In this document: positions 28,331 to 58,872 of the stretch, one piece after another
Position numbering within the stretch: the first letter of the stretch is position 1
Layout of the letters: every line of letters begins with the position of its first letter
Assembly: GCA_019054805.1 (NCBI GenBank)
Contig: JAHQIY010000014.1
Coordinates: 1,488,001-1,552,000, forward strand
Length of the DNA stretch: 64,000 nucleotides
DNA from: Brachionus manjavacas
Lineage: Eukaryota; Rotifera; Eurotatoria; Ploima; Brachionidae
Direction of reading: 5' to 3'
Notes under the pieces: generated by a model
What the model saw: the letters and a program-made list of their open reading frames with translations, nothing else
Database searches by the model: none
Told to the model about the DNA's origin: nothing
Made by a program: the position numbers and the translations under genes

Positions 28331-28333
28331 TTT

Positions 28334-28347
28334 ATTGATGCATCAAT
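28334..28347 (-). promoter_or_regulatory. palindrome overlapping poly(A) signal, copy 1
   Basis: ATTGATGCATCAAT is a perfect 14-bp palindrome about 75 nt past the stop, merging into AATAAA on the minus strand. The same element follows all four micropeptide genes. Confidence 0.75.
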
Positions 28348-28420
28348 AATTTACAAATAAAAAAAAACATAAACTGGATTGAAAACATTTTCTAGAAAAA
28401 TTAAAATGTCTACAATTTAA

Positions 28421-28564
28421 TTACCAAAGACCATATTGAAGGGATGTGAATGGCAAAGCGGTGGTGGCGGTTGATCCATAATATTCAAGTCCAGTGTATG
28501 GGAGAGCTGAATATGAATCCAAACCATAACCATAAGCAGCGGCTTCTAATCCCCAGTAAGACAT
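28421..28564 (-). CDS. 47-aa Tyr/Gly/Leu-rich micropeptide, copy 1
   Basis: An intact 48-codon ORF starts at 28564. The peptide begins MSYWGLEAAAYGYGLDSY, continues with SALPYTGLEYYGSTATT, and ends TSLQYGLW. It is rich in Tyr, Gly, Leu and Ala, with almost no charge, no Cys and no signal peptide. This is the most divergent of four copies (Phe and Gln where the others have Tyr and Pro near the end). It shares a promoter with copy 2 at 28993. TATAAATA lies at 28635-28642, about 75 nt upstream, and a palindrome with AATAAA follows the stop. I do not recognise the family; structural, eggshell-like or signalling roles are all open. Confidence 0.8.
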   Translation of the reverse strand: MSYWGLEAAAYGYGLDSYSALPYTGLEYYGSTATTALPFTSLQYGLW

Positions 28565-28992
28565 TTTAAGATTTATTTATCGTATTTTTAATTTTTATGT
28601 TTTTCTAATATTGAGTTTGAAAACAAAAACTTTTTATTTATACTAATTTGCTATGAAATAAAAAATAAATGTATTTTTACTTTAAAGATCTTATCTTTTA
28701 TTTTGAAAACAAAAAAATCTCTAATTCAAATTAACATTCATCATTATTATCTTTTTACTAAACAAAACAAAAACATAAATGAACATACCTACATATTTTA
28801 GAAATAGTTTTACTAAATGACAAGATCAATTATTGATTTTTGACAAATTTGTATCGGAGGAAATTCTAGAAGAAAACCTGGATAGTATTATGATAGAAAA
28901 TTTTGGTTGAGTATAAAAAGTGGCATGGTTTTCTATCAAAACAAAAATTTTTAGAAATAAATCAAATTATAATTCAATTAAAAAAACCAAAA
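28565..28992. promoter_or_regulatory. bidirectional promoter between micropeptide copies 1 and 2
   Basis: This 428-bp spacer lies between divergent start codons. It carries TATAAATA for copy 1 (28635-28642, minus) and TATAAAAAG for copy 2 (28912-28920, plus), each 75-81 nt before its ATG. The same spacer is present, inverted and nearly identical, at 42366-42794. Such conservation of AT-rich non-coding DNA points to recent duplication, selection, or both. Confidence 0.75.
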
Positions 28993-29136
28993 ATGTCTTA
29001 CTGGGGATTAGAAGCCGCTGCTTATGGTTATGGCTTGGATTCATATTCAGCTCTTCCATACACTGGACTTGAATATTATGGATCAACCGCCACCACGGCT
29101 CTGCCATACACATCTCTTCCATATGGTCTTTGGTAA
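28993..29136 (+). CDS. 47-aa Tyr/Gly/Leu-rich micropeptide, copy 2
   Basis: An intact ORF of 48 codons begins at the ATG at 28993 (context CAAAAATGTC). The peptide begins MSYWGLEAAAYGYGLDSY and ends TALPYTSLPYGLW. It is identical in sequence to copy 4 and differs from copy 3 by one residue. The frame is open upstream without another ATG, but TATAAAAAG at 28912 places transcription start inside that stretch, supporting this ATG. It belongs to a divergent pair with copy 1. No known domain is present. A nearly uncharged Tyr/Gly peptide could self-assemble, but that is speculation. Confidence 0.85.
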   Translation: MSYWGLEAAAYGYGLDSYSALPYTGLEYYGSTATTALPYTSLPYGLW

Positions 29137-29198
29137 ATAATCCTACCAATTTCATCTTTTTTTTTCTTTTTCAAATTAAAATTTTTTTATTGTAAAAT

Positions 29199-29212
29199 AT
29201 TGATGCATCAAT
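29199..29212 (+). promoter_or_regulatory. palindrome overlapping poly(A) signal, copy 2
   Basis: ATTGATGCATCAAT lies 62 nt after the stop and overlaps AATAAA at 29210-29215. It could be an RNA hairpin or a dyad DNA or RNA protein site. Confidence 0.75.
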
Positions 29213-29637
29213 AAAATTTATTTTAAAAAAAATTTTTTTTCTTTGCCTTTAAACTTTTTTTTAAATTAGAATATTTCTTTAAAATGATGAAATATTTTAT
29301 TAGATTTACATCTAATTTAAATAATTATTATTTCTAGATTTTTTTCTAATTAAAAATTTTATATTTTTCCAATAGTTTAGATTTTAATCTTTAAAATCTT
29401 TTTAGTTACGCTAATAATAAAAATTGAAAAAAGAAAATTTTTCTATCCTATTCAAGAAAAACTAATTTTGAATATATCTTTCCAACATCAAGACAAATAT
29501 TCAATCATTTGAAGAAATTCAAATATCCCTTGACAACTACCTTGACCTTGTTTTAAAATTGAAAAAATCAAAAAATCCAGCTCTTCGATTCAAATTATGC
29601 TTAATTTTTTTTAATTAATTTTTTAATTCAATCTAAA
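29213..29637. other. intergenic spacer
   Basis: AT-rich DNA between micropeptide copy 2 and LRRCC1, presumably with the LRRCC1 promoter. Nothing specific is visible. Confidence 0.4.
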
Positions 29638-32034
29638 ATGGACGAAGAGGACACCGACTTGAGTATGATTGACTGCGGCATCAAGTCCATAAAAGATCTT
29701 AATTTACGATACAACTTAAAATCGATAAATCTTCACTCGAACTCGATAACCAAAATCGAAAATTTAACATATCTTCAAAATCTAATACACCTTGATCTAT
29801 CATCGAACAAGATCACAAAAATCACCGGACTACACGGCCTCGTGTCGCTACGAACACTTAACCTCTCTTGCAATCAAATTGGATCAGTTGAAAATCTAGA
29901 TGGACTCAAAAAACTTGAATTCCTAAACTTGTCTTACAACAAAATTCAATTAATCACTGGCCTCAGCGATCTCTGGGGCTCGGACTACTCGCTTGAAACA
30001 CTTTTGCTAAACTCGAACTACATCCTATCACTAGAAGAGCTCAGTTATTACTTGAACGGACTGAACTACCTAAAGCACACCGCTCTTAACAACAACAAGT
30101 TTAGCCAAGACCACAGACCATTTCTATTCAAGAACTTGAAGCATTTGCTGAGCATTGATGGCAGAGATAGGCAAAATAAACCAGTAAGTTACAAAATAAA
30201 TAAAAAAATAGACAAATATCCAAATTTTATTGAAAATTCACCAGTTCTAAACACCCAGGATAGTGACGAAAATGTGTCGGGCACTTCATTTGGTCCAAAG
30301 CTTGACCAAATAGAGGAAAAAATTCACAAGCTTCTTTACATAAGAGACAAAATTAAGTGCAACAACAATGAAATGCCTAAACCGGTTGGTTTTATCAGGC
30401 AAACTAATGTCCAAGTGTCTAAAATAGACCAGTCCACGTCCACTATTGACTCGAGCATTGATGAAACCAATTCTTTGAATGAGCTAATTAAAAATTTAAA
30501 TTGTGAAATAGAAAACTACAAGAGTCAAAATGACAAAAATATTTTGCTCATTACAGATCTTGGTCGAAAAGTGGAAAGCTTGGAAATGGAAAAAGAGACC
30601 AGGAATACTGAGCTGGTTGGTGAGCGAAAAAAAAATGAGGATTTAGAGTCCAAATTAAAAGATTTGGAGAATAAATTGGACAAAATGGAAAAAACGTGTA
30701 AAGAAAAATTCGCCAAAAAGGAGGAAAAATTGAGAAAAAATTTCAAAAACGAAATTAAAGTCTTAAATGAAAGACTAGAGGGTCTAATTAGGCAAAAAGA
30801 TGACAAAATACATCAATTAGAAGAACAGTATAAAAGCTTAGAAGATGAGTTTAGACAAGCATTGGTCATTGAGTCGAACAGATTTAATGATTTATTTAAG
30901 AAATACGAATCTAATTTGGAGGAATTGAGCAATTTGCGCGTTGATTCAAAGCACTATGATGCTGAGAGGTCACGTGACAAGGCTTTGATAAACGAATTGA
31001 ATGACTTGATCCGCGAGCAAAAGGCCCGCGTCCAACAATTGAACAAGCTAAGACAACAAAGCACTGACGAAATTCAGAAAAGAAGCGCAAAACTGAACGA
31101 AGCTGTCAACGATTTGGCCAAGCTGAAGGAACAAAACGAGTTGATGAAAAAAGAAAAGCTTATGTGTGAGAATGTTCAGAAAAAATTGGCAACAGAATTC
31201 GATGCCATCAAGTCAGAGCGGGGACAATGGTCAACTAAGTTGAATGAGCAGAAAAATTTCTATCTGAACGAAGTAAATCGTTTGGACACAGAGAACAACC
31301 AGCTTAAATCTGATTTAAATTACCAAACTAATTGTTTGAATAAAGAAATAGATAATTGTAAAATTAAGAGTAAAATAATTGAGGATCAGACAGAGACTAT
31401 AAAAAAGTTGAAGCAGGCTTTGGTCGAGCGGGACGACTTGCTCAAGTCGACCCGTGAAGAGTCGTTGCATCACCAGAAGCAGCTTGAAAAGCAGTTGAAT
31501 GACGAAATGGATTTGTGCAATGAACTGCAGCTAAGATTGGATAAGAGCAATGAAAAAAAAGAGGCCCTGAAAATGGAAGTCGAAGACATGAGGCTGGATT
31601 TGGCTGAAAATAAGAGAATTTATGATGAACTGGCCGAGAAGTGGAAACAAAAAAGCGAGTCGATTAACGAGCTAGATGTGAAAGTGAGGCGAATGAAGGA
31701 AAATTTTGAAACAAAAGAAAAACAGCTTAATGAATTGACAGGCAAGTTGAAGGAAGAAAATGAGGCTTTAAATTTGAGGCTGAGAAAGGCGGATGACACT
31801 TTTCGGCTTCAGTATGATGCCGAGAAAAAAGAGCATTTGATTCAGATCGAGAAGCTTCGTGCTGAAAATAAGGAACTAGTCAAAAGCTATGAGGCCCGGA
31901 TTAAAGATCTTGAGGACGAAATGAGATGTATTTTAGTCGAATGTGAAAATAAGAAAAAGTTCTATGATGATAAAATAAATAGTTTTACTCAAGTATTCAG
32001 CAAATTTCAGTCAGATCTAAAGAGCAATTTTTAA
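29638..32034 (+). CDS. LRRCC1: LRRCC1-like centrosomal protein (LRR plus coiled coil)
   Basis: The 798-aa ORF has about five leucine-rich repeats (residues 18-185: LKSINLHSNSITKIENL, LIHLDLSSNKITKITGL, LRTLNLSCNQIGSVENL, LEFLNLSYNKIQ). A long coiled coil runs from about 270 to the end. Similarity to animal LRRCC1/CLERC extends into the rod (KIIEDQTETIKKLK near 580 and the closing INSFTQVFSKFQSDL), which argues for true LRRCC1 rather than a generic LRR protein. LRRCC1 sits at centrioles and supports centriole structure and cilia. The protein is shorter than the roughly 1030-aa human form because the low-complexity linker after the LRRs is compact. No intron is needed. Confidence 0.88.
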   Translation: MDEEDTDLSMIDCGIKSIKDLNLRYNLKSINLHSNSITKIENLTYLQNLIHLDLSSNKITKITGLHGLVSLRTLNLSCNQIGSVENLDGLKKLEFLNLSYNKIQLITGLSDLWGSDYSLETLLLNSNYILSLEELSYYLNGLNYLKHTALNNNKFSQDHRPFLFKNLKHLLSIDGRDRQNKPVSYKINKKIDKYPNFIENSPVLNTQDSDENVSGTSFGPKLDQIEEKIHKLLYIRDKIKCNNNEMPKPVGFIRQTNVQVSKIDQSTSTIDSSIDETNSLNELIKNLNCEIENYKSQNDKNILLITDLGRKVESLEMEKETRNTELVGERKKNEDLESKLKDLENKLDKMEKTCKEKFAKKEEKLRKNFKNEIKVLNERLEGLIRQKDDKIHQLEEQYKSLEDEFRQALVIESNRFNDLFKKYESNLEELSNLRVDSKHYDAERSRDKALINELNDLIREQKARVQQLNKLRQQSTDEIQKRSAKLNEAVNDLAKLKEQNELMKKEKLMCENVQKKLATEFDAIKSERGQWSTKLNEQKNFYLNEVNRLDTENNQLKSDLNYQTNCLNKEIDNCKIKSKIIEDQTETIKKLKQALVERDDLLKSTREESLHHQKQLEKQLNDEMDLCNELQLRLDKSNEKKEALKMEVEDMRLDLAENKRIYDELAEKWKQKSESINELDVKVRRMKENFETKEKQLNELTGKLKEENEALNLRLRKADDTFRLQYDAEKKEHLIQIEKLRAENKELVKSYEARIKDLEDEMRCILVECENKKKFYDDKINSFTQVFSKFQSDLKSNF

Positions 32035-32460
32035 TATGTAATTTTTTTTAATTTTAAAATTTTGTTATCAATTCTAGACAAAAATTATTTTTTAATAAAA
32101 TTTTTATTTGTGAGCATTTTAAAGTGTTGTTTTATTTAAAATTAAAAATGAAATTATGAAGTTTAGATACATTTATTTTTGATGGAATTATGATAAATGT
32201 TTGTTCATACAGTTAAAATGATGCAAATTTTATCTTAAAAATTTTTGGTTATATTAATTTCTAACCATTTATAAAAAGGAAAATAGCTTGTACATATTAG
32301 AATAAAAAAAAAGAAAAATCTAATTTTGATAAAGAAATAAAGATCATTAAAAAAGTGTTTTATACTTAATTTCACAAAAAAATACTTATCAATCGAATCT
32401 TCTAAATTCAAAGAGTATTTTTGGGAACTCGGCTCTATTCTTATGGCTAAATATTTCTTG
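32035..32460. other. intergenic spacer
   Basis: AT-rich 3' flank of LRRCC1. AATAAAA near 32094 is a likely poly(A) signal. No gene is seen. Confidence 0.4.
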
Positions 32461-32523
32461 TGTTTATAATACAAGGTCCTCTTTTGATGCTTTCAAATCA
32501 GTCTTGACCATGAATTGTCTTCC

Positions 32524-33055
32524 TCAGAAAAAACCTTTAAGCTCGTCTATTTCAGATACAAGACTTTGAGAAATTTCTATTGTTTCAGTGAATCTAAGGA
32601 TCCCTCTGGTGTATCCATTTCGGCTCAGTAACTCATAGAAGTCACCTTTTAAAGTATTGAGGCGGATAATGGTTGGCCCGGTATTAAGTGCAAGAAGTAA
32701 CTCAGTGGTTTTACATCTTCTTAGTATTCCAATGACATTGCCTTCTATTTGTTTTATCTTAAGTTTCTTAATTGAGCCCATTTGAAATTCTCTAGTCCAA
32801 AAAAAAAGAATCGTCTTATCCAGATGTCCTTTCATAAATGGGTACATAGTATTACTAACGATTCCAAGGACTTTCAATTTGGCCAAGGAAGCAACATAGT
32901 CTTTTTCCTTTTATTAATTTTTTTATGTTCACAGTTTTTATCATCATCATTGAATGTGACCTCAAAGTATTTCATAGATTTCACCTTTTTAATTGAGGTT
33001 TGGATACATAATTGGACATTTTCTTGCGAGAGATCACGCTTTCTCTCATCTGCAC
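32524..33055 (-). pseudogene. decayed ORF, possibly a beta-propeller protein fragment
   Basis: A 120-codon frame (32886-32524; it contains LKVLGIVSNTMYPF, ELLLALNTGPTIIRLN, YELLSRNGYTRGILRF) opens with TTG, not ATG. Just upstream, in another frame, lies a second coding-like stretch (RKRDLSQENVQLCIQ, KKVKSMKYFEVTFNDDD, KRKKTMLLPWPN then a stop) that would join only by a frameshift. The strand and spacing suggest one broken gene. The repeated turn-and-strand texture recalls WD/NHL propellers, but I cannot name a family. Confidence 0.35.
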
Positions 33056-33410
33056 TTCTGTAAACTGCTTGTTTACATATGTGTAATCTTTTTAATTAAA
33101 AAAAAGTATATTTCCTCTTAATAAAAAAATGGTTTTAAATCGCTTAAAAAGGGAAAGAAAAAATTTAATAACTCAATTTATTTTTTTTTCAATCTAAATT
33201 TTATCAAAAAGGAAATTTTTTTCCTTTTTTTAATTATTTGTATTATGCTACGGAAGAAAAAAGGAAAGTGTTCAAAAAATTAAATAAAATTGTTGACTTT
33301 TAAAAAAAAACAATAAATTATAAAATATTTTTAATTATTTACTCAATTAGCTCAAGAATTTTTATTCACAATTCTTATAAAACCTAAAACCGAAATCTTT
33401 AATAAAAAAA

Positions 33411-34389
33411 ATGAAACTCATAAACTTTTGTATGATCGTTATTTTTAATTTGAAATCTTCTCTGATTAATGGACAAAAAATGGGGAGATTCGAAATTCTA
33501 CGATTTAATGGTTCTACTGAATTGATTTTAGCAAAATCTTTCCGCGATTCTTATTCCATTATTATTTTTAAAAGCCATAGTCTTATAAGATGTGCTTCAG
33601 ATTGTTCTATCAATAAAGATTGTCTTCTCTTTACATTCAGTAAAAAACAGAACTATTGTGAATTTTTTTCTTCACAAAATTTTGTTGATTCCGAAGTTAT
33701 GTCCCAAAAAGATTGGAAAGTTTATCGAAAATTTATCGAAAACCACCAGGATTTAACTGCAACCTCTGCTACAGCAGCATCAACAAAAAATGTTGTATCA
33801 AGTAGTACAAAAGCTTTATCTATCAACATTCAATATAAAAGCTGTCCAGATAATTTAAGGTAAGCTTCAGTAGTTTTTTATTTTTTATGTACAGCTCTAA
33901 TATTTTATTTATTTATAAAGTTATTTTTCAATAGCTCAAAATGAATGTGTCAAATGTAGAGGTGGTTGGTCAGGATACAAAAATGTTTGTTATAAAGGAT
34001 TCACTGATACTAAAAATTGGCAACAATTTGTAGACTTTTGTGCATCACTAAATTCAACTTTATTAATTGCTGATAATGGTGAAAAATTTAAATTTTTTCA
34101 AGCAGTTTCTAAAAATCTCACTTTAATTAATAATAACCAAAGAACATGGGTAAATATCTTTAAAATTAGCTTTTTAATAAAAGTTAATTACTTTCTAAAG
34201 GTTTATGCTCGATATGATGTTATTAATGAGTTTAAATGGGTGAATTTAAAACCAATTAATATATCTAATATAATGGAATATTCAACAAGCTACACTGGAT
34301 GCTTTGGATATTATACAACACCAGATTCTTTTTTAAGTGTCACTTTGTGTAACTCGAATTCAAATGGAATTTGTGAATATGATTACTAA
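33411..34389 (+). CDS. secreted PAN/apple and C-type lectin-like protein
   Basis: Three exons (33411-33859, 33921-34149, 34201-34389; introns 61 and 51 nt) join in frame to 288 aa. A signal peptide (MKLINFCMIVIFNLKSSL) is followed by a PAN/apple-like region (about 45-105; SLIRCASDCSINKDCLLFTFS and NYCEFFS). A Ser/Thr/Ala linker comes next, then a C-type lectin-like domain (from about 155; CVKCRGGWSGYKNVCYKGF, CASLNSTLLIADN, TWVYARYD, GCFGYYTTPDSFLSVTLCN, GICEYDY). Typical Ca2+-site motifs (EPN/QPD, WND) are absent, so sugar binding is doubtful. The first splice choice is fixed by the frame leading into CVKC. It is probably an extracellular adhesion or recognition protein. Confidence 0.75.
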
Positions 34390-35880
34390 AATTTTGGCAA
34401 CAAAAAAATAATATCAACAAGATAATAGAAACGATGCTTTTTAATTAAAAACAAAATTTAGAAAAATGAGAACAGCTTCCAAAATGAAATTAAATTTCTA
34501 AAATTTTAAATTTTATAGTTTATCTTAAATTTTCATTGTAATAACTTAAATGATTTAACGACAATTATAAAAACTCAATGTTAAAAATAAAGAATGAAAC
34601 AAATTACATTGAGGAAAGTAAATTTTTTATTGTTAATAAGTTGGGTAAAAATTTAGGCTCTCATTTAATTTTGAATTTTAAACTAAATAATCATATTAAA
34701 TTTTTCAATAAAAAGTGAAATTTAAATAATTGTATAATTCATAAGTTTACAAGTAAAACTTTTTATTTAAAATTTTAAAAATTTTTGTATCCCATTTCAA
34801 AACAACTCAACTTGTGAATCAAGCGGGGTTGTGTATATTTTAAAATGTTCAAAATGCAATGTTTATTATATAGGTGAATCAGGTAAAAAGCTAAAGAAGT
34901 TTTTGCTAAATTTTACTAAAAACTTATCTAAGTATAATTAATTTAAGTGAAAACCGCCAAAAAAATCAAAATATAATCAATCTCGTGTTAGTAACCTTGG
35001 AGTGTTCGGCCAAAAAAAAATTATTGAAGAGGATGAAGATGAAGATGATCATATGAAAATAGACGTTGACCCCGATATAAATAATAATTACTATATAAAT
35101 ATATACCATAGTAAAATTTAGAAAAAAAATATCAATAGAATATTAATATACAAATTTGTTAATTATCACATGATTTGAAGACATTTTTTAAGAAAAATAA
35201 AGCAATAAAATAAAAAAGTTAAACCATAGAATTGTTCAGAATTTTGTCTAGATTTAAAAAGAAAAAAAAATTCGGGTCATAATTGATCCCTCGGAGGAGA
35301 TACGATTTAAACAAGAAAAAACACATTTTTTTCCTTTTTTTAGCCAACAAAAACCACCACACCTTTTTTTTTTCTTCTAAATTACATTGTAGAGAATTTA
35401 ATGCTCTTTCAGAATATATATACTTTTTTAGTATATTTAAGAATTATCGTTGAGATTTTGAGTCTTAAAGAACACCAACTTTTTAAAGGGTTTGCTATTT
35501 TTGGAACCCTGGGTGTAAAAAAATTTTTTTTTTGCGTTTTTTGAGGGCGAATATTACGAATTTCAAGTCAAAAATGTGAAATTCAAATAGCACTAAAGTT
35601 TTGAATTTCGTGAACTTTATATATTTTTTATTCAATTATAGAAACGCAGGGTTCTTAAATTTTATATTGAAAAAATCATTATAAAAAATGTTAAATTTGA
35701 TGTTGGTTTTTTTTAAAATATCTTTAGCAAGTTTAGAAAAATCAACAAAATAATTTTCTAATGGTATTTTTTATTTTACTAAAAAACTGAAATTGTTAAA
35801 AACTAATCAAGTGCGTGACTAGATTCTTTTAAAAAATAATATCTGATCAAAGGCAAGTTTCTTCGCCCTAATTTTCAATA
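34390..35880. other. intergenic region with Penelope relic
   Basis: AT-rich DNA. The only readable trace is a GIY-YIG-like fragment at 34804-34902, listed separately. A GATGAAGATGAAGATGA run lies near 35033. No intact gene is seen. Confidence 0.4.
34804..34902 (+). mobile_element. Penelope-like element relic (GIY-YIG endonuclease fragment)
   Basis: Thirty-three open codons read NSTCESSGVVYILKCSKC then NVYYIGESGKKLKKF. This is the zinc-knuckle-like CxxC followed by the YIGE core typical of the GIY-YIG endonuclease in Penelope-like retroelements. The surrounding frames are broken, so only a fragment survives. Confidence 0.6.
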
Positions 35881-35884
35881 TCAA

Positions 35885-36662
35885 ATGATTAATCAAGCAA
35901 ATGGTCTTTCTCATACTCTAAGCGAAACGATTGAAGAAAAAGATCTTGGTATTTATATAACAAGTGATCTAAAGTGGAAAAAACAATGCTCAGCAGCATC
36001 GGCAAAAGCAAATAGAGCACTAGGTATGATCAAGCACACTTTTAAAAACTTAAGTGTTTTTTCGCTTAGACTACTCTATACAGCACTAGTCCGTCCTCAT
36101 TTAGAATATGCTGTAAGTGTCTGGAGCCCAACAGCAAAAGGTGACATATATATAATCGAAAAGGTGCAACGTAGAGCGACCAAGTTTCTAAGTTGTCTAA
36201 AAAATCTACCATATGAATCAAGGTTAAAGATCTTAAATTTGACAACTCTTGAAGAAAGACGTAAAAGAGGTGATCTAATCCAAATGTACAAATAAGTCAA
36301 AGGTATGGAAAATATAAGTTTAATAAACGGAATTAATTATGCGAAAACAACAACAGGGCCAGCTAGTAATCTGAGAAGACATGAAAAGAGGCTAGTAAGA
36401 GATCTAAACAAGAATGGTCCGCATCGCTTTAACTTTTTAACAAACAGAGTAGTGGACATATGGAATGGTTTGTCAACACGAGCTATAAATGCGGTTTCAC
36501 TCAATGGTTTCAAGTCAATAATCGACAAAGAAGTTTTTGTAATAAATAGAAGCATAGACTGCTAAGGCTCTTAATGGGCCAGACGTCATATTTGGCGTTG
36601 GTAAAGCGTTCATTCGCTGTACAGCAGTTTATACTACTACTACTACTACTACTACTACTACA
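35885..36662 (+). mobile_element. LINE 3' fragment with ACT microsatellite tail
   Basis: Two frames, separated by a TAA after IQMYK, encode the end of a non-LTR reverse transcriptase: DLGIYITSDLKWKKQC, LRLLYTALVRPHLEYAVSVW, ATKFLSCLKNLPYESRLK, and then RRHEKRLVRDLNKNGPHRF and FLTNRVVDIWNGL. The GIY and RPHLEYA motifs are typical of this clade. A short 3' UTR ends in a (TAC)n run at about 36630-36661, likely the element's own tail. The element is 5'-truncated and dead. Confidence 0.88.
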
Positions 36663-36921
36663 ATAATTAAAGTTTCAAAGGAAACTTATCTGTAATCAAT
36701 CAGCGATATTTCTAATTTTTTTACCTCATCAACTTAAGACTGCTAATAATTTTTTTTTGAAAAATACTTCAAAAATTCATTTCCAAAATTTTAAAATACA
36801 AAAATTACTAAAATTATTTATTTTATTAACAAAAAAAAATGATTTACATTTAAATATTAAAAATATAATCAACAAATATAAAGATAACCTGCCATTCAAC
36901 ATAATAATCATTTGATAAAAA

Positions 36922-38108
36922 CTAACGAGTAGAAAGACTAAATGACAATTTAGGCCGAGTGCCTTGTTTGCCCAAGATTAATTTTTGTTCATCCATTTCC
37001 CTCTTGCGTTTGTCTTCCTCAAATTTTTGTCTTTCCTCGAGCAACTTTCGCTGCTCTTCGACCAATCTTTGCTGATCCTCAGCCTATTTATATGCCAAAT
37101 TAACTAATATAAAAATTTAATTCAATTTAAAATTAATTTACAATTTTAATTTGCTGCATTTCTATTTTTCGATTGTTTTCGCTGATTAAACGATTGAGCT
37201 CAGCTCTTTTGCGATTTTCATCCTCCTTTTAAATATCTTAGATTAGTTCAAAAATTGGCACAAAAGCAGAAAGAAAATCAAAATGAAAAACTCTATGTGT
37301 AAGAACACAAACCGATCTGGAGCGCATCGATTTCGGAAAAATGCGGATGAGCTGAAACTAAAAATTAACTTTTTTTTTATGCGATAGAAATTGCTTAGAT
37401 CATTAACTAAAAACATGTTTAAGTACTTCTTTTTCAAGAAAAGCCTTAAACTGTGTCTGCTTTTGCTTTTCTAGTTCATCTAGCATTTCTTTTTCCATCA
37501 TTTTTTTGGCAATCAAAAGACGCTTTTGAACTTCAAGCTCAACATCCGCATCACGCTTTGCCATTTCTTCTTGCATTAGTCTTTCGATTTCGACCCCAAC
37601 ACGTCTTTGTACTTCTTCCTCTATTTTTTTTTCAATACTTTCACTCGATTCACTTAAAAAAAAAATAAAATAAAATACCAAATAAAAAAATTTCATTAAT
37701 TTCTACCTAGTAGCATTTTTTTGATTTTTCTCTACTTCTCTTTTTTTTAGCTCGGCCTCGATGTCAACTGAGGACTTTGAAGAAGCTCTAGATAGTGATC
37801 TAGACCTGTTATGTGACCTTAATTAAAGTTAAATTATTCTAAACAATTTTTTTATTTTTCAAAAGTCAAACTTCAAAGAAATATTTAAATCACAAAAAAA
37901 AAAATTTATTAAAAAATTTAAAAATCAAATTAATTGAATTATTTTTTATTTACTTTTTGCTAATTTTTCGTCTTTCTTTTGACCGTGAGCGAATTTTCTT
38001 GTGTTTGCTTGATTTAGAGTGTCGCCTCGATTCAGAGTAGCTATGGGACCTGCTTCTGGATTTTCTCTTTTTCTGTTTTTCAACTGATCTTGACCTTGAC
38101 CGGCCCAT
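36922..38108 (-). CDS. ARGLU1: arginine and glutamate-rich protein 1 (ARGLU1)
   Basis: Five exons (38108-37954, 37817-37707, 37652-37427, 37225-37142, 37083-36922) join in frame to 245 aa; human ARGLU1 has 273. The N-terminus is an RS domain (MGRSRSRSVEKQKKRKSRSR). The rest is a Glu/Arg-rich helix (IEEEVQRRVGVEIERLMQEE, ENNRKIEMQQIKIAEDQQR). The protein ends with the family's conserved signature LILGKQGTRPKLSFSL. ARGLU1 is a nuclear splicing modulator and Mediator-linked coactivator. It is the most intron-dense gene here for its length (one per 49 codons). The exon-3/4 boundary is supported by loss of helix character beyond the donor at 37426. Confidence 0.93.
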
Positions 38109-38667
38109 TATGGAACTTTTTTTGACAAAAAGTGATTTTAATCGTCAATTTTAGTAAAGCAAAATAAAAGGGTTAATGTAAATGGACTCAATGGTCCGAG
38201 ATTTTCCGCGTTTAGTTTATGTATCATGCTTGCTTTGATTTGTTCAGAAGTTAGCTGAAATTATGATTTTAATTTAAATAGAAATATTCTTAGATTTATA
38301 TTTCATCTAATTGAAAATACAAAGCTCTAAATAAAATATTCTATTTAATTCATTTTTTATTTAGAACAAAAGGCTTATATATGAAAATATTTAAAGCATT
38401 TGGATTTTTTATTAGAAAAATAAATTGCATAGAAATATTAACAATCTGACAAGTAATTTTTTAAGACTATTTGTTGAGTTAAAATTCAAGAAAAAAGAAA
38501 GAAAGTTCAGATTAATGTGCCCTCCTTACGACTGCTAAAGAAAACATAATAATTTTTTTTAAGTACAAAATTTTTTTCGACTGTTCGTCTTAAAATTTTT
38601 TGATCAAAAAAATTTTAAATTAATTTTATGGAAATAGTAAAATTTAAGCTTTTTGTAAAGATAGTTT
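38109..38667. other. intergenic spacer
   Basis: AT-rich DNA upstream of ARGLU1. No other feature is seen before the MITE target site. Confidence 0.4.
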
Positions 38668-38675
38668 TTTAAAAT

Positions 38676-39028
38676 GGCAATGTGAAATATTAGTACAAAA
38701 ATTACAGTACAAAAAGTAAAAACGCTATAATTTTTTTTCTAATTGTGTAAAAATGGTTCTGTAAACAGTACAATATTGTACAAATTTTTTAGAAACGAAT
38801 ACCAAGCTCTGCAAAAACTCTGCAATTTATTGCAAATATTAATCATATATTTTTTAATGGTGTGCATTATACAGAAAAATGCAGAGTTTTTGCAGAGCTT
38901 GGTATTCGTGTCTAAAAAATTTGTACAACATTCTACTGTTTACAGAACCATTTTTTCACAATTAGAAAAAAAATTATAGCGTTTTTACTTTTTGTACTGT
39001 AATTTTTGTACTAATATTTCACATTGCC
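38676..39028. mobile_element. 353-bp palindromic MITE, 8-bp TSD
   Basis: Two arms of about 150 bp are near-perfect reverse complements around a spacer of about 55 bp. Each begins GGCAATGTGAAATATTAG and ends near CAAAAACTCTGCA. Identical TTTAAAAT octamers flank it (38668-38675 and 39029-39036). The whole unit could fold into one long hairpin. It lacks a transposase, and an 8-bp duplication suits hAT or Merlin-type elements. Confidence 0.93.
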
Positions 39029-39036
39029 TTTAAAAT

Positions 39037-40465
39037 TTTGTTTATTAACGCAAAATTACAAAAAAAAATACGGTAATTTTACGTTTAATTTACCAATTAA
39101 TGGATCAAAATGGCTCTTGTTTTTATTATTTTTCAATTTTTCAGCTACTTTTATCCAAAAAGGTATAACGTAATATTTCGTAATTTCATGTAAAATTTTG
39201 CATAAATTTGGTAAAATCTAGAATAAAAAGCAAAATAGCATAAAAAATGTAAATTTTTTAATTAAATTTTTTTAAATTAAATACGGTTAAAGTTTTTAGT
39301 GATTAGACCAATCTCCATTTTTTTCAATTAATCTTTTGATTACCTTTTTTGACAAGATAAGTTTTTTTGAAATAAAACAATTTTTATAAAACCTATTATT
39401 TTGAGGCTTTGTGAAATTCAGTACAAATGATAAAAAATCAATCAAAAAATTAATTTTAAAAATAATTTAATTAATATTGATGACTAAAAGATTAATTTAA
39501 TTAACCAAAAATAAGTGAATCTTATTTTTATTAGATATGTATATCGTTTATTAATTATAGAAATCAATTATTTATTTTATTTTTCAAAAAATAATTTTAG
39601 ATTATTTTTTTATTATTTTATATTTTTCAATTAATTATTTATGTAGATCAAAAAAATACATCCCATTAATTTTATTCCTATTGTATTATATTTATTTTTA
39701 TTGACAAGCAAAAACATTGATTAGAGTCTGCAATCATTTTAAATAACTTAATATGCAGACAAAAAATTTCTCTTGTTTATTTTCATTTTAACTAGAGAGT
39801 CAATATTAGTGATCTTAAAATAATAAATGCTATCAAAAAAGTACAATTTTCAAAAACATCCAAATTTAAATTTAAATTTTATGACTCAATTTCAGACTGG
39901 TTTTTAGTCACAGGTATTAAGTCAAGTCAACATGACTTAAATTTTTTTTTAAGTCAAAGTTATAACTTGACTTAAATATTTTTTTCAAAGTTAAGTCAGT
40001 GACCTAAAATTTTTTTTTAAATGAATAAATCTCTAAATAAACCATAATCTTAAAATTAAATCGGTCAGAGTTTTCTAAATTTATTCATAAGGTTCAGCCT
40101 TCAGACAAAAAATATATTTGGTTGAATAACGCACATTTAAAAATAGGTGATACATTTCTAATAGAAATAGAATCAAATTTTTTAACATTAAAAAACATTT
40201 TATGATTTTTGTGATTGTTAATTATAAAAAAAATTTAGTTCGACTTAGACTTAAAACTGTGACTTTTAAACAAGTTTGATCAATTTTAATGTGACTGAAA
40301 ATCCTAATACAAAAAACATATAAATAAAATAAAATAGTAAATCTCGAGATTTAATTAATATATTTTCATTCTTAAATAACAATTAAATATTAATAAACTC
40401 TAATAAAAAAGTTTTGATTAAATATCTAAATGGATTGAGCATCAGTTATTTTTACTTCTATGTGA
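39037..40465. other. intergenic, with an AAGTCAA-rich patch
   Basis: No gene is seen. From about 39893 to 40306, loosely inverted ends (GGTTTTTAGTCACAG at left; GGATTTTCAGTCACA at right when reversed) and repeated AAGTCAA/TTGACTT words suggest a decayed MITE. Its motif content is similar to the element at 47488. Support is weak. Confidence 0.35.
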
Positions 40466-41063
40466 TTATATTTCTTCTAATTCAATCAAAGTACCACAAC
40501 AATCTTTGGGATGTAGGAAAACTACTGGCTTTCCGTGAGCTCCAATTCGTGGCTCTTCGCTCAGACATCTAATTTTATTTTCTTTTACTGTCTTCATAGC
40601 TTCATGTATGTTGTCAACTTCAAGGCAAATGTGATGAATACCTCCATTCGCATTTTTATCCAAAAAACCTTTGATAGGACTTTTTTCACCAAGCGGATGC
40701 AAAAGCTGAAAGATTAAAAATTTAGTAAAAATTTTATTTGAAATATCTAATTGAATTACTTCAATTTTGGTATTTCCTAATTCAACAAACACAGTATAAA
40801 CGCCGTGTTCAGGTTGAGCAACTTTGTCTGAAATTTTGGTGGCTGACAAAGCATTTTTATAGAATGCTACTGCTTTGTCCATATTTGGAACAGCAATTGC
40901 AACATGGTTCAATTTTCCCAAATTCCACAATTTCTATGAAAAAAAAATAATCGTTTTCTTAATTAAATTGATCATTTTTTACGTCAGGGACATTTGAAAA
41001 ATTCCTTGTTGTTATAGATTTGACATTTGATAATTTTGTTACTTTTGAAACTAGTTTGAACAT
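40466..41063 (-). CDS. MCEE: methylmalonyl-CoA epimerase, mitochondrial
   Basis: This enzyme interconverts (R)- and (S)-methylmalonyl-CoA in propionate breakdown, a VOC-fold reaction. Three exons (41063-40983, 40933-40760, 40705-40466) give 164 aa. Exon 1 is a typical mitochondrial presequence (MFKLVSKVTKLSNVKSITTR). The mature protein starts KLNHVAIAVPNMDKAVAFYK and shows LLHPLGEKSPI, GGIHHICLEVDNIHEA and IGAHGKPVVFLHPKDCCGTL. The metal ligands expected for the family are visible (His of LNHVAI, His of IHHICLE, Glu of LIELEE). The 54-nt second intron is a multiple of three and has no in-frame stop, so retention would insert 18 residues before LLHPLGE. I treat it as an intron because the family has no insert there. 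Confidence 0.95.
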
Positions 41064-42101
41064 CTTATCTAAAAAAACTTAGTCTGAATTTTAATACTCT
41101 TTAAAAAAAAATATTTGAGGGCTTGATTAAATGCCGAATGAATTCTTTCATTTAAAAATTGAAAAATAAGCGGAATTATTTATAAAAAGACTCTAACAAG
41201 GACTCACACCCTATTTCTTGGAGATTCACTGTAAACTGTTTTTTTTATGCAGAATTTTTTGGCTCTAAAAATTGAATAGATGAATTTAAAAAAATCGAAA
41301 TTATGCACATTTTACTTGAAAAATTAATTTAGGTTAATTTATCATTAAAGTATAAGTTTCTTAAAATATTAAAATTAACTTGAATTAATGTAAAGTTTTA
41401 AAAAATTAATAAGAAATAATCTTTATTTAGAATTTAAAAAATAAAATCCTAATCAAAAATTATTTGATGAGAAAACTTTCTCTTAAAATTGAATATTTGT
41501 GCATTTTTCTAATTTAAAAAAAATTTTAAATATTTGTTTAAAATGGCATAGTGCAATTTGCTGTTTTGTCCAAATTTTTATATTTTTCTTGCAATTGATC
41601 ACTTTATTACTAATTTATTGATTTTTTTAAAATTTCTTATTCTTGTGTAATATTTTCAGTACAATAATATAGATAGGTTTTTTGCAATAAATTCTTCGAA
41701 TTTTGGAAAACCAAAGCTACCACTAGATAGATCTTGAATTTTTCTAGCCTTTGGCTTTTACAAAAAAAAAAAAAATCAAAGATTCGAAAAGTTATGCACA
41801 TTGGAAACTTAAAAGTGATTACCAATGACTCAGTTTTCAAGTTGCTGCAGAATGGTCAATTTTTTAGCTACGATAATGATAAATAGCTCAAATTCAAGAG
41901 CGCAAAAAGTTCTACATGATACAATTTACATGAGTAACAGGAGATCGAAGAAACAAAGAAACAGGAGATCATCTTTCTACGAAAAAATAAAAGAATCTAA
42001 GTATGCAATCCAGTCAAGTTCAAATATTGAAAAGATTTTCATTATTTTTATAAGATTCGTCTTTAGAAATAATTTTTTGAGAAAGCTTTTTAAAAGGAAT
42101 A
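41064..42101. other. intergenic spacer
   Basis: This is AT-rich DNA. A plus-strand open frame at about 41825-42124 has no family features or supporting signals and is not called. Confidence 0.4.
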
Positions 42102-42149
42102 ATGCAATAATTTCAAAGCAATAACAAAAAATTAAGTGATATAAATTTT

Positions 42150-42163
42150 ATTGATGCACCAAT
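42150..42163 (-). promoter_or_regulatory. palindrome overlapping poly(A) signal, copy 3
   Basis: On the minus strand ATTGGTGCATCAAT merges into AATAAA. It has one mismatch from the perfect palindrome, shared with copy 4. Confidence 0.7.
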
Positions 42164-42221
42164 ATTTTACAAAAAATAAATTTCAATTAGAAAAAGAAAA
42201 AAGTGAAATTGGTAGGATTAT

Positions 42222-42365
42222 TTACCAAAGACCATATGGAAGAGATGTGTATGGCAGAGCGGTGGTGGCGGTTGATCCATAATATTCAAGTCCAGTGTAT
42301 GGAAGAGCTGAATAAGAATCCAAACCATAACCATAAGCAGCGGCTTCTAATCCCCAGCAAGACAT
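42222..42365 (-). CDS. 47-aa Tyr/Gly/Leu-rich micropeptide, copy 3
   Basis: An intact ORF differs from copies 2 and 4 by one residue: Cys replaces Tyr at position 3 (MSCWGLEAAAYGYGLDSY). This is the only Cys in the family. The gene is the minus-strand member of the second divergent pair. TATAAAAAG lies at 42438-42446, about 75 nt upstream. Its 3' flank is nearly identical to that of copy 4. Function is unknown. Confidence 0.82.
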   Translation of the reverse strand: MSCWGLEAAAYGYGLDSYSALPYTGLEYYGSTATTALPYTSLPYGLW

Positions 42366-42794
42366 TTTTGGTTTTTTTAATTGAATTATAATTTGATTTA
42401 TTTCTAAAAATTTTTGTTTTGATAGAAAACCATGCCACTTTTTATACTCAACCAAAAATTTTCTATCATAATACTATCCAGGTTTTCTTCTAGAATTTCC
42501 TCCGATACAAATTTGTCAAAAATCAATAATTGATCTTGTCATTTAGTAAAACTATTTCTAAAATATGTAGGTATGTTCATTTATGTTTTTGTTTTGTTTA
42601 GTAAAAAGATAATAATGATGAATGTTAATTTGAATTAGAGATTTTTTTGTTTTCAAAATAAAAGATAAGATCTTTAAAGTAAAAATACATTTATTTATTA
42701 TTTCATAGCAAATTAGTATAAATAAAAAGTTTTTGTTTTCAAACTCAATATTAGAAAAACATTAAAGTTAAAAAAACGATAAATAAATCTTAAA
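42366..42794. promoter_or_regulatory. bidirectional promoter between micropeptide copies 3 and 4
   Basis: This is a nearly identical inverted copy of 28565-28992. TATAAAAAG (42438-42446, minus) serves copy 3 and TATAAATA (42717-42724, plus) serves copy 4. The spacer itself is not palindromic, so its two sides keep distinct TATA elements even though the flanking genes have become mirror images. Confidence 0.75.
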
Positions 42795-42938
42795 ATGTCT
42801 TACTGGGGATTAGAAGCCGCTGCTTATGGTTATGGTTTGGATTCATATTCAGCTCTTCCATACACTGGACTTGAATATTATGGATCAACCGCCACCACCG
42901 CTCTGCCATACACATCTCTTCCATATGGTCTTTGGTAA
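42795..42938 (+). CDS. 47-aa Tyr/Gly/Leu-rich micropeptide, copy 4
   Basis: An intact ORF encodes the same peptide as copy 2. By position next to the TATAAATA side of the promoter it corresponds to copy 1, yet its sequence and 3' flank match copies 2 and 3. This is the pattern left by conversion between arms of the inverted repeat. ATG context is AAAATGTC. No domain, signal peptide or Cys is present. Confidence 0.85.
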   Translation: MSYWGLEAAAYGYGLDSYSALPYTGLEYYGSTATTALPYTSLPYGLW

Positions 42939-42996
42939 ATAATCCTACCAATTTCACTTTTTTCTTTTTCTAATTGAAATTTATTTTTTGTAAAAT

Positions 42997-43010
42997 ATTG
43001 GTGCATCAAT
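42997..43010 (+). promoter_or_regulatory. palindrome overlapping poly(A) signal, copy 4
   Basis: ATTGGTGCATCAAT followed by AAAA forms the AATAAA signal 59-75 nt after the stop, as in copy 3. Confidence 0.7.
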
Positions 43011-43849
43011 AAAATTTATATCACTTAATTTTTTGTTATTGCTTTGAAATTATTGCATGATTAAATTTTTTTATTAAAAATCAGAATATTTTTTTAAAAG
43101 AAGGAAAATATTTTATTAGATTTTTTATTTAATATAAAGCTTGATTCAAAATTTAGCGATTATTTTTTTGCTAATTCAAATATTTAAAATTAACTTTAAT
43201 TAAAATTAAACTTGTCAAAGAATTTAATAGATATCTTAATTTTAGGGGTTTGGAGATTTCACTGGCAAATATCTGAGAACTTTTTTAAAAAATGTTTGAA
43301 AGAAGATCCAATGAAGAATTTTCAAAACCATATTGAAAACTTTAATAGTAATAAATTTGAATCTATGACATCAAAGGCTTTTCTAAAGTCAATTAACAAA
43401 GAGATAGTTGTTAATTTTTTTTTGGTATATTTCACTAATAAATTCATGAATGTCTGTTGACAAGAATTTCCAAATAAAGAATAAATAATAGCAAGTTTCT
43501 GATCTTCCGGTATTTTTTTATAACTAAACTTTTAAACAATTTATATTAATAAGGCTTTAACATAAATATCATACAGATTAAGAATTAAAATTAATTTAAT
43601 AAAATAAAATCAGATTTCTCATATAAGTTGTTGTTTTTTTGTTAAAATGACTTGGTAAAATTGATTTTAATTCTCTTTTTTTACTATTTTCTATGCTTAT
43701 TTTAAACAAAACAGTTTTAATTAAAATTTAAAAAATAGAACAAAAAAATGAAGTCAAAGATTTTATTGAATATACGAAATGTTTAAAAATTTCGAATATG
43801 GTTTAGTTCTCCCTCCTAGTTTTTTTATATATTCTAATGTAATAAACTT

Positions 43850-44250: not shown

Positions 44251-44477
44251 ATTTTATATTTAAAATTTAATTTGCCAAAAATTAATTAATAAATTTGATT
44301 TAAAATAAAAAAATTAATCACAGTTAACGTTTTTCTTTAATAACTTTTTTGTTATCAAATTGATGACATAACCAGGAAGGATAACTATGATGACAAAAAA
44401 TGTTATTAACTAGACCCAATTTTTTTCATGCTCATTTCTAAAATGAAGACAAAAATCACCTTTTTTAATGAATGAAC

Positions 44478-44545
44478 TTGGCTATTATGGATCAACTGCC
44501 ACTACTGCTTTTCCATACACACATCTTCCCTATTGTTTTTTGGTA
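44478..44545 (+). pseudogene. decayed fifth micropeptide copy
   Basis: GGCTATTATGGATCAACTGC and what follows matches the C-terminal half of the micropeptide genes (YYGSTATTAFPYTHLPY), then departs from the family ending. The first half is missing. It shows the family was larger or older than the four intact copies. Confidence 0.75.
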
Positions 44546-44792
44546 AAATTTTTTCTAATTAAAATTTATTTAATTTTTAAAATTTAAGACACCTAATTTT
44601 ACATTTTATAAGTCTAAAAAAAGTAATTCATTTATTAGCTTCTTATAGAGTTTTTGTAACTATGACAACCACTTCACAACAAATTTATTTTATTTATGCT
44701 TTGATCTTAGCTATATTCAAAGTTTCCAGCAAAAATATAAAAAAAAATTTAATTTTAACTTGAAAAACAAGCTCACTAAAATCATCTTAAAA

Positions 44793-47487: not shown

Positions 47488-47983
47488 CAGAGTTGGTCAA
47501 AAGTCAAACTTTAGAGTCAGAATCGTTAAAAGTCAAAGTCAAAGTCTGACTTTAACTTGGATCTAAAATAATTTCAAAGTCAAAGCCTGACTTTGACTTG
47601 GATCTAAAATAATTTCAAAGTCAAAGTCTGACTTTGACTTGGATCTAAAATAATTTCAAAGTCAAAGTCTGACTTTGACTTGAGTATAAAATAATTTCAA
47701 AGTCTAAGTCTGACTTTGACTTGAGTCTAAAATAATTTTATTAACAATAAAATTCAAGATTAACACCAAATAACTTGGAAAAATTAACAATGATAAAATG
47801 TAATTTGAAAACATTAAAATTCGAGTACTAAACTTTTTTTAAAATAAATATTTTAAAATGTAAATTTTAATTTTAACTTGATATGAAAAAAATAAAATTT
47901 AAAGTCAAAGTCCTGACTTGACTTCAAAAAAATAAATTTTAAAGTCAAAGTCCAGACTTGACTTTGACTTTTGACCAACTCTG
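47488..47983. mobile_element. 496-bp hAT-type MITE with internal tandem repeats
   Basis: The ends are perfect 21-bp inverted repeats beginning CAGAGTTGGTCAAAAGTCAA. The octamer GTTCAGTA flanks both sides (47480-47487 and 47984-47991). The CAGAG terminus and 8-bp duplication are hallmarks of hAT elements. The interior holds a tandem 41-bp repeat. No transposase is encoded. It sits inside the reverse-transcriptase region of a LINE, so it is younger than that LINE. Confidence 0.95.
47530..47735. repeat. 41-bp tandem repeat inside the MITE, about 4-5 copies
   Basis: The unit begins ATCTAAAATAATTTCAAAGT and contains the inverted words AAAGTC and GACTTT. Copies start at 47561 and 47602 and continue at 41-bp steps. 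Each unit can form a small hairpin. Confidence 0.9.
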
Positions 47984-56714: not shown

Positions 56715-57114
56715 TTAATAATATTTATGTAATTGTAGAAAAAAAACCATAGATAAAAGGATACGCTTTGAGTACTTCAAATTTAAGACTGAATTGCACC
56801 CATCGGTTTGGCAACACGAAACTGTACCTCCATTTCCAAAAATTACCGGAACGTTTGTTTCTGTACACTTTGAAGCACATACTCGAACGACATTAAGATT
56901 CCATGAAAGAAAACCATAAGTTTTCTGTAAAGGGAGAAAAAAATAAAGTTAAATTAATTTTTATATTCAATATCACTTTGCAGAAAGATTCTCCGCTTGC
57001 ACAATCTGTTAATGACTCAGCAGTGCTACAACCATTGCAAACATAACACTTTAGTCCATTAGTAGCTTGAATCAAATTTAAAAACACAGGTATGAAAAGA
57101 ACAATCAAAAGCAT
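56715..57114 (-). CDS. Ly6/uPAR three-finger protein, copy 1
   Basis: Exons 57114-56977 and 56924-56715 (intron 52 nt) join in frame to 115 aa. A signal peptide (MLLIVLFIPVFLNLIQATNG) leads to LKCYVCNGCSTAESLTDC, the first finger. Exon 2 carries CASKC and the closing CCQTDGCNSVLN, i.e. the CCxxDxCN box of Ly6 domains. A hydrophobic end (RILLSMVFFLQLHKYY) suggests a GPI-attachment signal. Ten Cys are visible in the domain. Such proteins are extracellular modulators of receptors or junctions. Its exon 1 and upstream flank are almost the same as in copy 2, but exon 2 is very different. Confidence 0.88.
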
Positions 57115-58062
57115 TTTGAAAACGAAATTAGCTTTAGATATGTTGAATTATAAATTTTAAATTAAAAAAAACATTTTCTTTTAAAAAAATTTATTTACAT
57201 AATTAAAGTAATTTTAATGCTTCCATTAATTGTTTTGGTTACAGTTTTAAGTAAAATTTTAAAAAATTTTATTTATTTCAAAAAACACCACTTGGGTGAT
57301 AAAAGATTTATTTTTATTATTTTAAATTTAATATTACAAGTTCAATGAATTACTTTTTCGATTCAATAAAAATTTTTGATTTTTATTAATACCGAAAAAA
57401 AATTGCAAATATTTAATGAATTTAATGAATAAATGATCTAACTTTTGAAATTATTCTAAAAAATAAGATTTTAAGATTTTTATTAAGAAATTTGTATATA
57501 GATATCTTGCTGCAAATTTTTAGAATTATTAGTCTTTATTGAACATTTATTTCAATTGATTGATAAAATGCTTTATTTCTATCTTTCTTAATTCAAATCA
57601 AACAAGAATTACAATTGAATTATTAACTAAATAAAGTTTTATCTTTAAATTAAAAAAAGATACAAAATTCAGATAATTGTTCTTTTAATTTTAGAAAAAG
57701 TAAGCCATGAAAATATATTTCTGTTAAAAAGAAAAATTTTTTTTCAAAAAAGACTTGAACAAAATAAAATTTACATAACATCTTTCTTTTTAGAATCCTT
57801 AAGAAATATTTTAATATAAATACAATTGCTGGTTTATTTTTGAATAAGTTAGCAGGGTTTTAAACGAACTGTGAATTTCTTTTTGAATGAATATTTCATT
57901 ACGAATACAAGTTTAATTTTGTTCGAGATAAAAATATTAATTTATTAAAAGAATCTAAAAAATCTTAAGAAATCAAAATATTTTATTTTTACACTAGGGT
58001 AAATTGATTTTTAATTTGAGTAAAATAAAAATATGGATTTGCTGAATGCCTGTTAATAATGG
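57115..58062. other. intergenic spacer between Ly6 copies
   Basis: The first 140 bp (to about 57255) match the 5' flank of copy 2 nearly base for base and so include a duplicated promoter. The remainder is unrelated AT-rich DNA without a gene. Confidence 0.5.
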
Positions 58063-58462
58063 CTAAGGAAAGAATAACAAAAAAATATTAAATAAAAATA
58101 ATGAAAAATTATTAAATTTTGACCATTTTAAATTTAAACTTAAATTACAGCCATCAGTTAAGCAACAAGATATTCCAGCACCATTTCCAAAAATAGCAGG
58201 AACATATATTTCGGAGCATGTTGCAGAGCATGTACGTGAAACTGTCAATGAATATGATATGATTTGGTAATTTTTCTAGAAAATAATTTAAAAAAATTAA
58301 AAAATGTTTTACACTTAAAGTTACTAGGCAATAATTTTGACCACTTGGACAATCTGTTAATGACTCAGCAGTGCTACAACCATTGCAAACATAACACTTT
58401 AGTCCATTAGTAGCTTGAATCAAATTTAAAAACACAGGTATGAAAAGAACAATCAAAAGCAT
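58063..58462 (-). CDS. Ly6/uPAR three-finger protein, copy 2
   Basis: Exons 58462-58325 and 58275-58063 (intron 49 nt) give 116 aa. The signal peptide and first finger repeat copy 1 with few changes (TDCPSGQNYCL in place of TDCASGESFCK). Exon 2 reads VSRTCSATCSEIYVPAIFGN then GISCCLTDGCNLSLNLK, with the CCxxDxCN box. The protein ends in a hydrophobic GPI-type tail (FSLFLFNIFLLFFP). It is a tandem paralogue of copy 1, same strand, 950 bp upstream. Partner and tissue are unknown. Confidence 0.88.
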
Positions 58463-58872
58463 TTTGAAAACGAAATTAGCTTTAGATACGTTGAATTATA
58501 AATTTTAAATAGAAAAAAACATTTTCTTTTAAAAAAATTTATTTACATAATTAAAGTAATTTTAATGCTTTCATTAATTGTTTTGGTTACAGTTTTAAGT
58601 AAAATTCGGAAGGGTTAATTAAATTTTTTTTAACAAATACTAGATAGATCAAAAGCCTTTTCTAATAAAATATAATACAATTTTTAGAATTCTTTTATTA
58701 ATTTAAATACAGTTAATTTTTTTTTTCAATTTAAAAAAAGAGATTTCTTTTATTTTACATCAAACAATTTCCTTATTAAAAAGTAAGGTGCTATTTAAAA
58801 TTCTCTCTTAATTATTTTAAAATTTTATTATTATTTTTGAGTTATTTTCTACTAATTAAAAAAACAATCAAT
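58463..58872. other. intergenic spacer
   Basis: The first 140 bp are the duplicated Ly6 5' flank. The rest is AT-rich 3' flank of the SLC5 gene. Confidence 0.45.

Follow-up and report, generated by a model that had tools for sequence, protein, structure and literature searches.

Two head-to-head pairs of likely genes for a 47-residue tyrosine-rich peptide in Brachionus manjavacas, with a probable inversion of the shared promoter spacer in one pair

A stretch of 64,000 nucleotides (nt) from the rotifer Brachionus manjavacas (assembly GCA_019054805.1, contig JAHQIY010000014.1, positions 1,488,001 to 1,552,000 of the forward strand; hereafter the window) contains four intact open reading frames (ORFs) of 47 codons. 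To judge from the DNA, they are likely to be genuine genes transcribed by RNA polymerase II, and all of them code for one 47-residue peptide. They form two pairs, A and B, each arranged head to head around a spacer of 428 or 429 bp, and all four intact copies lie within 14.5 kb. The left and right members are designated A_L, A_R, B_L and B_R. Each is complete in one open frame, with introns possible outside the ORF. The genes are judged likely to be real because the TATA boxes, the coding constraint and a conserved 3' element are taken together. The pairs are probably direct duplicates, in one of which the spacer, with both of its promoters, has been inverted; either pair could be the flipped one.

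An earlier, preliminary description of this DNA had reported four near-identical ORFs in two head-to-head pairs, and this proved correct. It was also right that two intact copies encode the same peptide, these being A_R and B_R. The A_L peptide differs from theirs by Y39F and P43Q and the B_L peptide by Y3C, and coding identity among the intact copies is 95-99%. Pair A and pair B share a core of 806 bp at 97% identity. In a six-frame protein search of the whole genome (114,169,980 bases in 61 contigs; E<=1, only the best candidates scored), all five matches were to the four intact ORFs and one decayed copy nearby. Because of this core match and because all five protein matches lie here, the copies are not regarded as products of chance. 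A pattern built on the first codons recovered three of the four intact genes and was found nowhere else in the genome; B_L was missed through its cysteine change. The fifth copy is decayed, as had been described, but begins at 44474 and not at 44478. It retains only codons 25-44, followed by a frame change; codons 1-24 are without a match, and one extra base was seen by eye near its end. The guanine-plus-cytosine (GC) content of the window is 22-37% in 2-kb steps; like the genome size of 114 Mb, this is compatible with a monogonont rotifer, the GC of whose assemblies is given as 24.95-31.14% (PMC11954553).

Both spacers have the features expected of divergent promoters. TATAAAT is found 78 nt ahead of the A_L start codon and TATAAAA 81 nt ahead of that of A_R, and the TATAWAW consensus is present upstream of the ATG in all four genes (at -78 in A_L and B_R and at -81 in A_R and B_L), which bears out the earlier report of a TATA box on either side of the shared promoter. 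As a background, the same motif was detected in 93 of 608 strand-stretches of the window (100 nt each, GC under 28%). It is also found 70-128 nt before 15 of 18 actin and histone starts in the same genome, a proportion that does not represent independent cases, several of the histone copies being near-identical. This control set of 18 starts (16 distinct coding sequences) was picked by the N-termini of actin, H3, H4 or H2A from 20 loci; it does not include the ORFs of loci L013, L028 and L029, the H2B-like ORFs, or an actin-related ORF in L019. Loci L028 and L029 encode two H3-like histones with an unusual N-terminus (MARNKQTARKST...) and are separated by about 5 kb on one contig. The two spacers differ by four substitutions and one indel (99% alike), and the spacer sequence is present at only two places genome-wide.

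Indications of coding constraint come from A_L and A_R, the most diverged pair of copies, and from the substitutions among all four. The A_L and A_R ORFs are 95.1% identical, and the 60 nt on either side are at the level of shuffled sequence (0.69 vs 0.72 on the 5' side and 0.62 vs 0.69 on the 3' side). The nine substitutions among the four copies comprise three nonsynonymous and six synonymous changes, where about 71-75% would be expected to be nonsynonymous (neutral P = 0.011-0.020); a count of this dN/dS type had been proposed in the preliminary description. No length changes are present across 144 x 4 nt, and start, frame and stop are kept in all four copies, in line with the earlier claim of a conserved coding frame. 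The sense frame is open throughout the four copies; on the antisense strand even the best frame, though open in three of them, is broken in A_L. Taken alone, the retention of the frame would be weak evidence, given nine substitutions in a set homogenised by conversion.

Several observations weigh against the coding interpretation. The BLAST match between A_L and A_R reaches 44 nt upstream of the ATG, and the 5' edge of the conserved region is thus not perfectly sharp. The fifth copy, with 5.5 synonymous to 5.5 nonsynonymous changes, is not clearly constrained. Codon usage is only marginally nearer to the highly expressed actin and histone set than to the background (0.04-0.19 of background draws reach the observed value), and strong codon adaptation was rejected as a description of these genes. 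Finally, because of gene conversion the four copies are not fully independent of one another.

The 3' ends contain a conserved block that terminates in an AATAAA poly(A) signal. A palindromic block is what the 3' flanks of A_L and A_R still share, with an alignment score of 59 where the best of 40 shuffles reached 43. Its exact 16-mer occurs twice in the genome, each time in pair A, in a search that covered the exact form and not variants such as that of pair B, which differs by one base. The possibility of a wider gene set sharing this 3' block was dropped, as the exact 16-mer is confined to those two places. An RNA hairpin in the block is not indicated, since its folding is no better than that of shuffled sequences in any of the four genes (z -0.12 to -0.56). 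The features described here and below are collected in Table 1.

Table 1. Positions in the window of the 47-codon ORFs and of the elements associated with them
Feature	Positions	Strand	Basis
A_L, 47-residue ORF, F39 and Q43 variants	28421..28564	-	ORF list, alignment of copies
A_R, 47-residue ORF, majority peptide	28993..29136	+	ORF list, alignment of copies
B_L, 47-residue ORF, C3 variant, promoter type of A_R	42222..42365	-	ORF list, alignment of copies
B_R, 47-residue ORF, peptide identical to A_R, promoter type of A_L	42795..42938	+	ORF list, alignment
Decayed fifth copy, codons 25-44 then frame change	44474..44547	+	Repeat matches, genome protein search, alignment
A_L 3' element, palindromic block running into AATAAA	28331..28346	-	Exact 16-mer search (C14:1516331-1516346)
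A_R 3' element, same 16-mer as A_L	29200..29215	+	Exact 16-mer search, flank comparison
Putative divergent promoter spacer, pair A, 428 bp	28565..28992	.	TATA scan; spacer search of genome
Spacer, pair B, 429 bp, inverted relative to pair A spacer	42366..42794	.	Repeat matches, alignment
Right flank, pair A, direct-orientation likeness to pair B right flank	29249..29321	+	79% identity, E 1.5e-8
Right flank, pair B, similar to A_R flank	43061..43138	+	Repeat matches, flank scores, genome searches
Left arm, pair B, apparently homogenised (B_L ORF, 3' untranslated region and beyond)	42098..42368	-	98.9% identical to 42792-43062

The orientation of the two pairs suggests how they may have arisen. 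Over the 806-bp core, pair B is inverted with respect to pair A, but the right outer flanks of the pairs match in direct orientation. Pair B is thus more than pair A turned round. More than 125 nt past the stop codon, the A_R and B_R flanks score 67 (maximum of 40 shuffles, 36) and the A_R and B_L flanks 26 (maximum 42). At an offset of 115-275 nt after the stop, the A_R/B_R comparison scores 70 and the five other flank pairs 21-24 (A_R/B_L, 21); the best of 448 real AT-rich control segments in that A_R/B_R test reached 44. When this stretch next to A_R was searched against the whole genome, its sole match was the B_R flank (79%, E 1.5e-8), a match on contig C2 being to another part of the query. 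Because the core matches inverted and the right outer flank direct, the spacer appears to have been inverted in one pair. This probable inversion is an addition to what had been described previously.

The flank comparison also has points that count against an inversion. The B_R flank has a further match, found on contig C1 (81% over 59 nt, E 9.9e-8), which scores 63 with the B_R flank and only 38-43 with that of A_R, and which looks like an AT-rich chance match. When the control segments were compared with the A_L flank, two of the 448 reached 67; AT-rich DNA of this genome yields sizeable chance matches, close to the flank score. The left flanks show no similarity beyond 125 nt (28 against a shuffle maximum of 36), and the flip is argued from the right flank only. 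Just beyond the right flank of pair B, from about 43233 outward (43233-43330), the sequence belongs to a dispersed repeat, for which 23 matches at other places were listed.

With these points considered, a direct duplication followed by a spacer flip in one pair, homogenisation of the pair B arms, and exchange between or constraint on the spacers is a reasonably probable history. An ancestral pair would have been duplicated in direct orientation about 13.8 kb away. The inverted-repeat arms would then have recombined or undergone template switching, with the result that the spacer was flipped in one pair and the arms of pair B were homogenised. In pair B, 271 bp of the two arms agree at 98.9%, and one arm thus appears to have replaced the sequence of the other. 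The spacers are far more similar (99%) than the right flanks (79%), which may reflect a later exchange of sequence from pair to pair or else strong constraint. B_R has the peptide, the type of 3' untranslated region and the flank of A_R, but the promoter type of A_L; the spacer flip and the homogenisation of the pair B arms would thus have placed genes for identical peptides under opposite promoters.

A precedent for such products is available in yeast, where template switching between inverted repeats has been reported to yield both homogenisation of the arms and inversion of the spacer (PMC8604942). The two outcomes are the same here, whereas the yeast repeats, as described in that source, are short and non-identical and the arms in the present case are whole genes (144-271 bp) around a divergent promoter region. 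Ordinary recombination between the arms could be an alternative route to the same products. A more far-reaching proposal, for which we would give long odds, is that the shared promoter cassette can turn over between the inverted gene arms and that each flip exchanges the two unlike promoters between the flanking genes, so that a naturally switching bidirectional cassette would feed an independently invented intracellular structural peptide of the keratin-associated protein (KRTAP) type. On this proposal the flip might also be polymorphic in populations.

The majority peptide is rich in aromatic and small residues, with 9 Tyr, 7 Leu, 6 Gly, 6 Ala and 2 Trp among its 47 residues and no Lys, Arg or His. 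It had been said to have no charge pattern, a statement that does not hold: three acidic residues and no basic ones give this 5.2-kDa peptide a calculated isoelectric point (pI) of 4.05. An internal repeat, ALPYT.L.Y, occurs at a spacing of 16, and its strength is reached by 32 of 5000 shuffles. The maximum 19-residue Kyte-Doolittle mean is 0.25; by hydropathy alone, the sequence lacks a segment of the hydrophobicity usual in signal peptides, and the peptide is probably intracellular. A single-sequence AlphaFold2 model is of low confidence, with a mean predicted local distance difference test (pLDDT) score of 57 and only one helix, of four residues.

Searches for relatives support the view that the peptide is without a recognised family in the collections searched (families, structures, viral, prokaryote and phage). 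In keeping with the earlier statement that no known domain is present, no Pfam family was found at E<=1 and no NCBIfam family at E<=10, and no relative of the peptide was found in viral contigs, prokaryote genomes or phages. Two matches in the PDB (E 0.057 and 1.3) are short and repeat-like and were not taken as homology. The pattern Tyr-Gly-(Leu/Phe)-Trp-stop is found at 18 places in the genome, against 35 for its reversed control, and four of the 18 are the known copies. Distant paralogues were sought at 12 of the 14 other places, and by eye none has a similar upstream peptide. No description of the peptide was found among the open-licence papers listed in literature searches, which were made by words and not by sequence. 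The designation as an unrecognised micropeptide family can thus be retained in that these collections hold no family or relative and that promoter, coding and 3' features are gene-like; its wider scope, which takes in rotifer transcriptomes, goes beyond those collections.

Other explanations of the four loci differ in how much of this evidence they can accommodate. The genes may be real and translated and the peptide a regulatory or phase-separating microprotein, Tyr-rich and disordered, or else a stage-specific protein of the germline or resting egg. The composition, rich in Tyr, Gly and Ser and without basic residues, and the low pLDDT would be compatible with this, as would the presence in both spacers (28864 and 42488) of TTCTAGAA, which we take to be the core of a heat-shock-type element. 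However, a single-sequence model of 47 residues is no evidence of disorder, and the window has five occurrences of TTCTAGAA, of which the pairs and their immediate surroundings account for three (the third just past A_L, at 28390), a plain count to which no significance is attached. This explanation is possible but doubtful. Another reading, in which the loci are transcribed but conservation acts on a non-coding RNA or on regulatory DNA and the ORF is incidental, is unlikely. The spacers are as conserved between the pairs (99%) as the ORFs, and much of the similarity may accordingly reflect homogenisation and not coding constraint, but in pair A the similarity drops to shuffle level just outside ATG and TAA, and the synonymous excess, the constant length and the preserved start, frame and stop also count against an incidental ORF.

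Two further explanations concern the origin of the copies. A unit of about 885 bp (28331-29215), itself in two copies, is bounded on each side by the same 3' block, which would suit a mobile element whose terminal repeats are the palindromic blocks. Copies scattered among unrelated flanks are not seen, though: the spacer is present at only two places and only these copies were found genome-wide, the right flanks remain alike beyond the unit, a sign of segmental duplication, and the ORFs of at least 40 residues in pair A are the two genes and one antisense ORF. A mobile element is consequently disfavoured as very improbable. A false duplication of one locus during assembly, to which the 97% identity of the cores might be attributed, is the hardest to credit, since the pairs differ in their flanks and in coding positions and the right flanks are only 79% identical, as would be expected of old, separate loci.

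The function of the peptide can be approached through its likeness to known structural proteins. High-glycine-tyrosine KRTAPs are short, Tyr-rich proteins without a signal peptide, encoded by clustered genes; they are defined by high glycine and tyrosine contents and usually contain cysteine. We tentatively propose, by analogy, a structural role inside the cell for this Tyr-rich peptide. Made in quantity, it would function much as proteins of this type do and, by way of Tyr and Trp contacts, would fill or cross-link an intracellular scaffold. The electron-dense intracytoplasmic lamina reported inside the syncytial epidermis of rotifers (PMC13403294) would be a natural place for it.

The comparison with KRTAPs holds in gene organisation and fails in composition. 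Mammalian KRTAP genes are single-exon, and KRTAPs are described as restricted to mammals (PMC12101200). The genes described here resemble them in their single coding exon, clustered copies and short, Tyr-rich product, and these multi-copy genes are also TATA-driven. In contrast, the peptide has 9 Tyr, 6 Gly (13%) and no Cys among 47 residues, apart from the single Cys of one variant (three of the four copies lack Cys); the host is probably an invertebrate; and no Pfam family matches, in a search of Pfam with whatever KRTAP models it holds. Because the glycine and cysteine contents do not fit, the peptide is said to work like a KRTAP and not to be a member of the family. The proposed function is drawn from composition, and the absence of a known partner filament also counts against it. 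Families of this kind can arise independently, as is indicated by the KRTAP-like proteins of lampreys (PMC12101200). Those proteins, as reported there, are 15-32 kDa in size, two-exon and slightly basic, with 23-36% Gly and, in four of seven, more than 8% Cys; the peptide here is 5.2 kDa, acidic and encoded in one open frame.

Further repeats and ORFs were observed elsewhere in the window. A 1.8-kb inverted repeat (319-2105 and 11376-13181, 90.8% identity) contains two copies of one ORF of 508-517 residues, and a large ORF starting at 13696 looks like one for an NFX1-type helicase with zinc fingers. Between the pairs lies a palindrome of 369 bp (38667-39035) that matches itself in inverted orientation at 90%. 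A 41-bp tandem repeat, itself partly palindromic, is present five times at 47533-47738, and a direct repeat of 266 bp (97.7% identity; 56993-57258 and 58341-58606) overlaps two ORFs whose first 38 residues are the same.

Annotation easily overlooks short genes that have no known relatives; in the present case a real gene is indicated by the promoter, the reading frame, the 3' element and the history of the copies. The flipped promoter, if this reading is right, would be a clear example from nature of a spacer inverted between arms the size of genes. Should the peptide prove abundant in the rotifer integument, a rigid intracellular skeleton could be approached through it at the molecular level.

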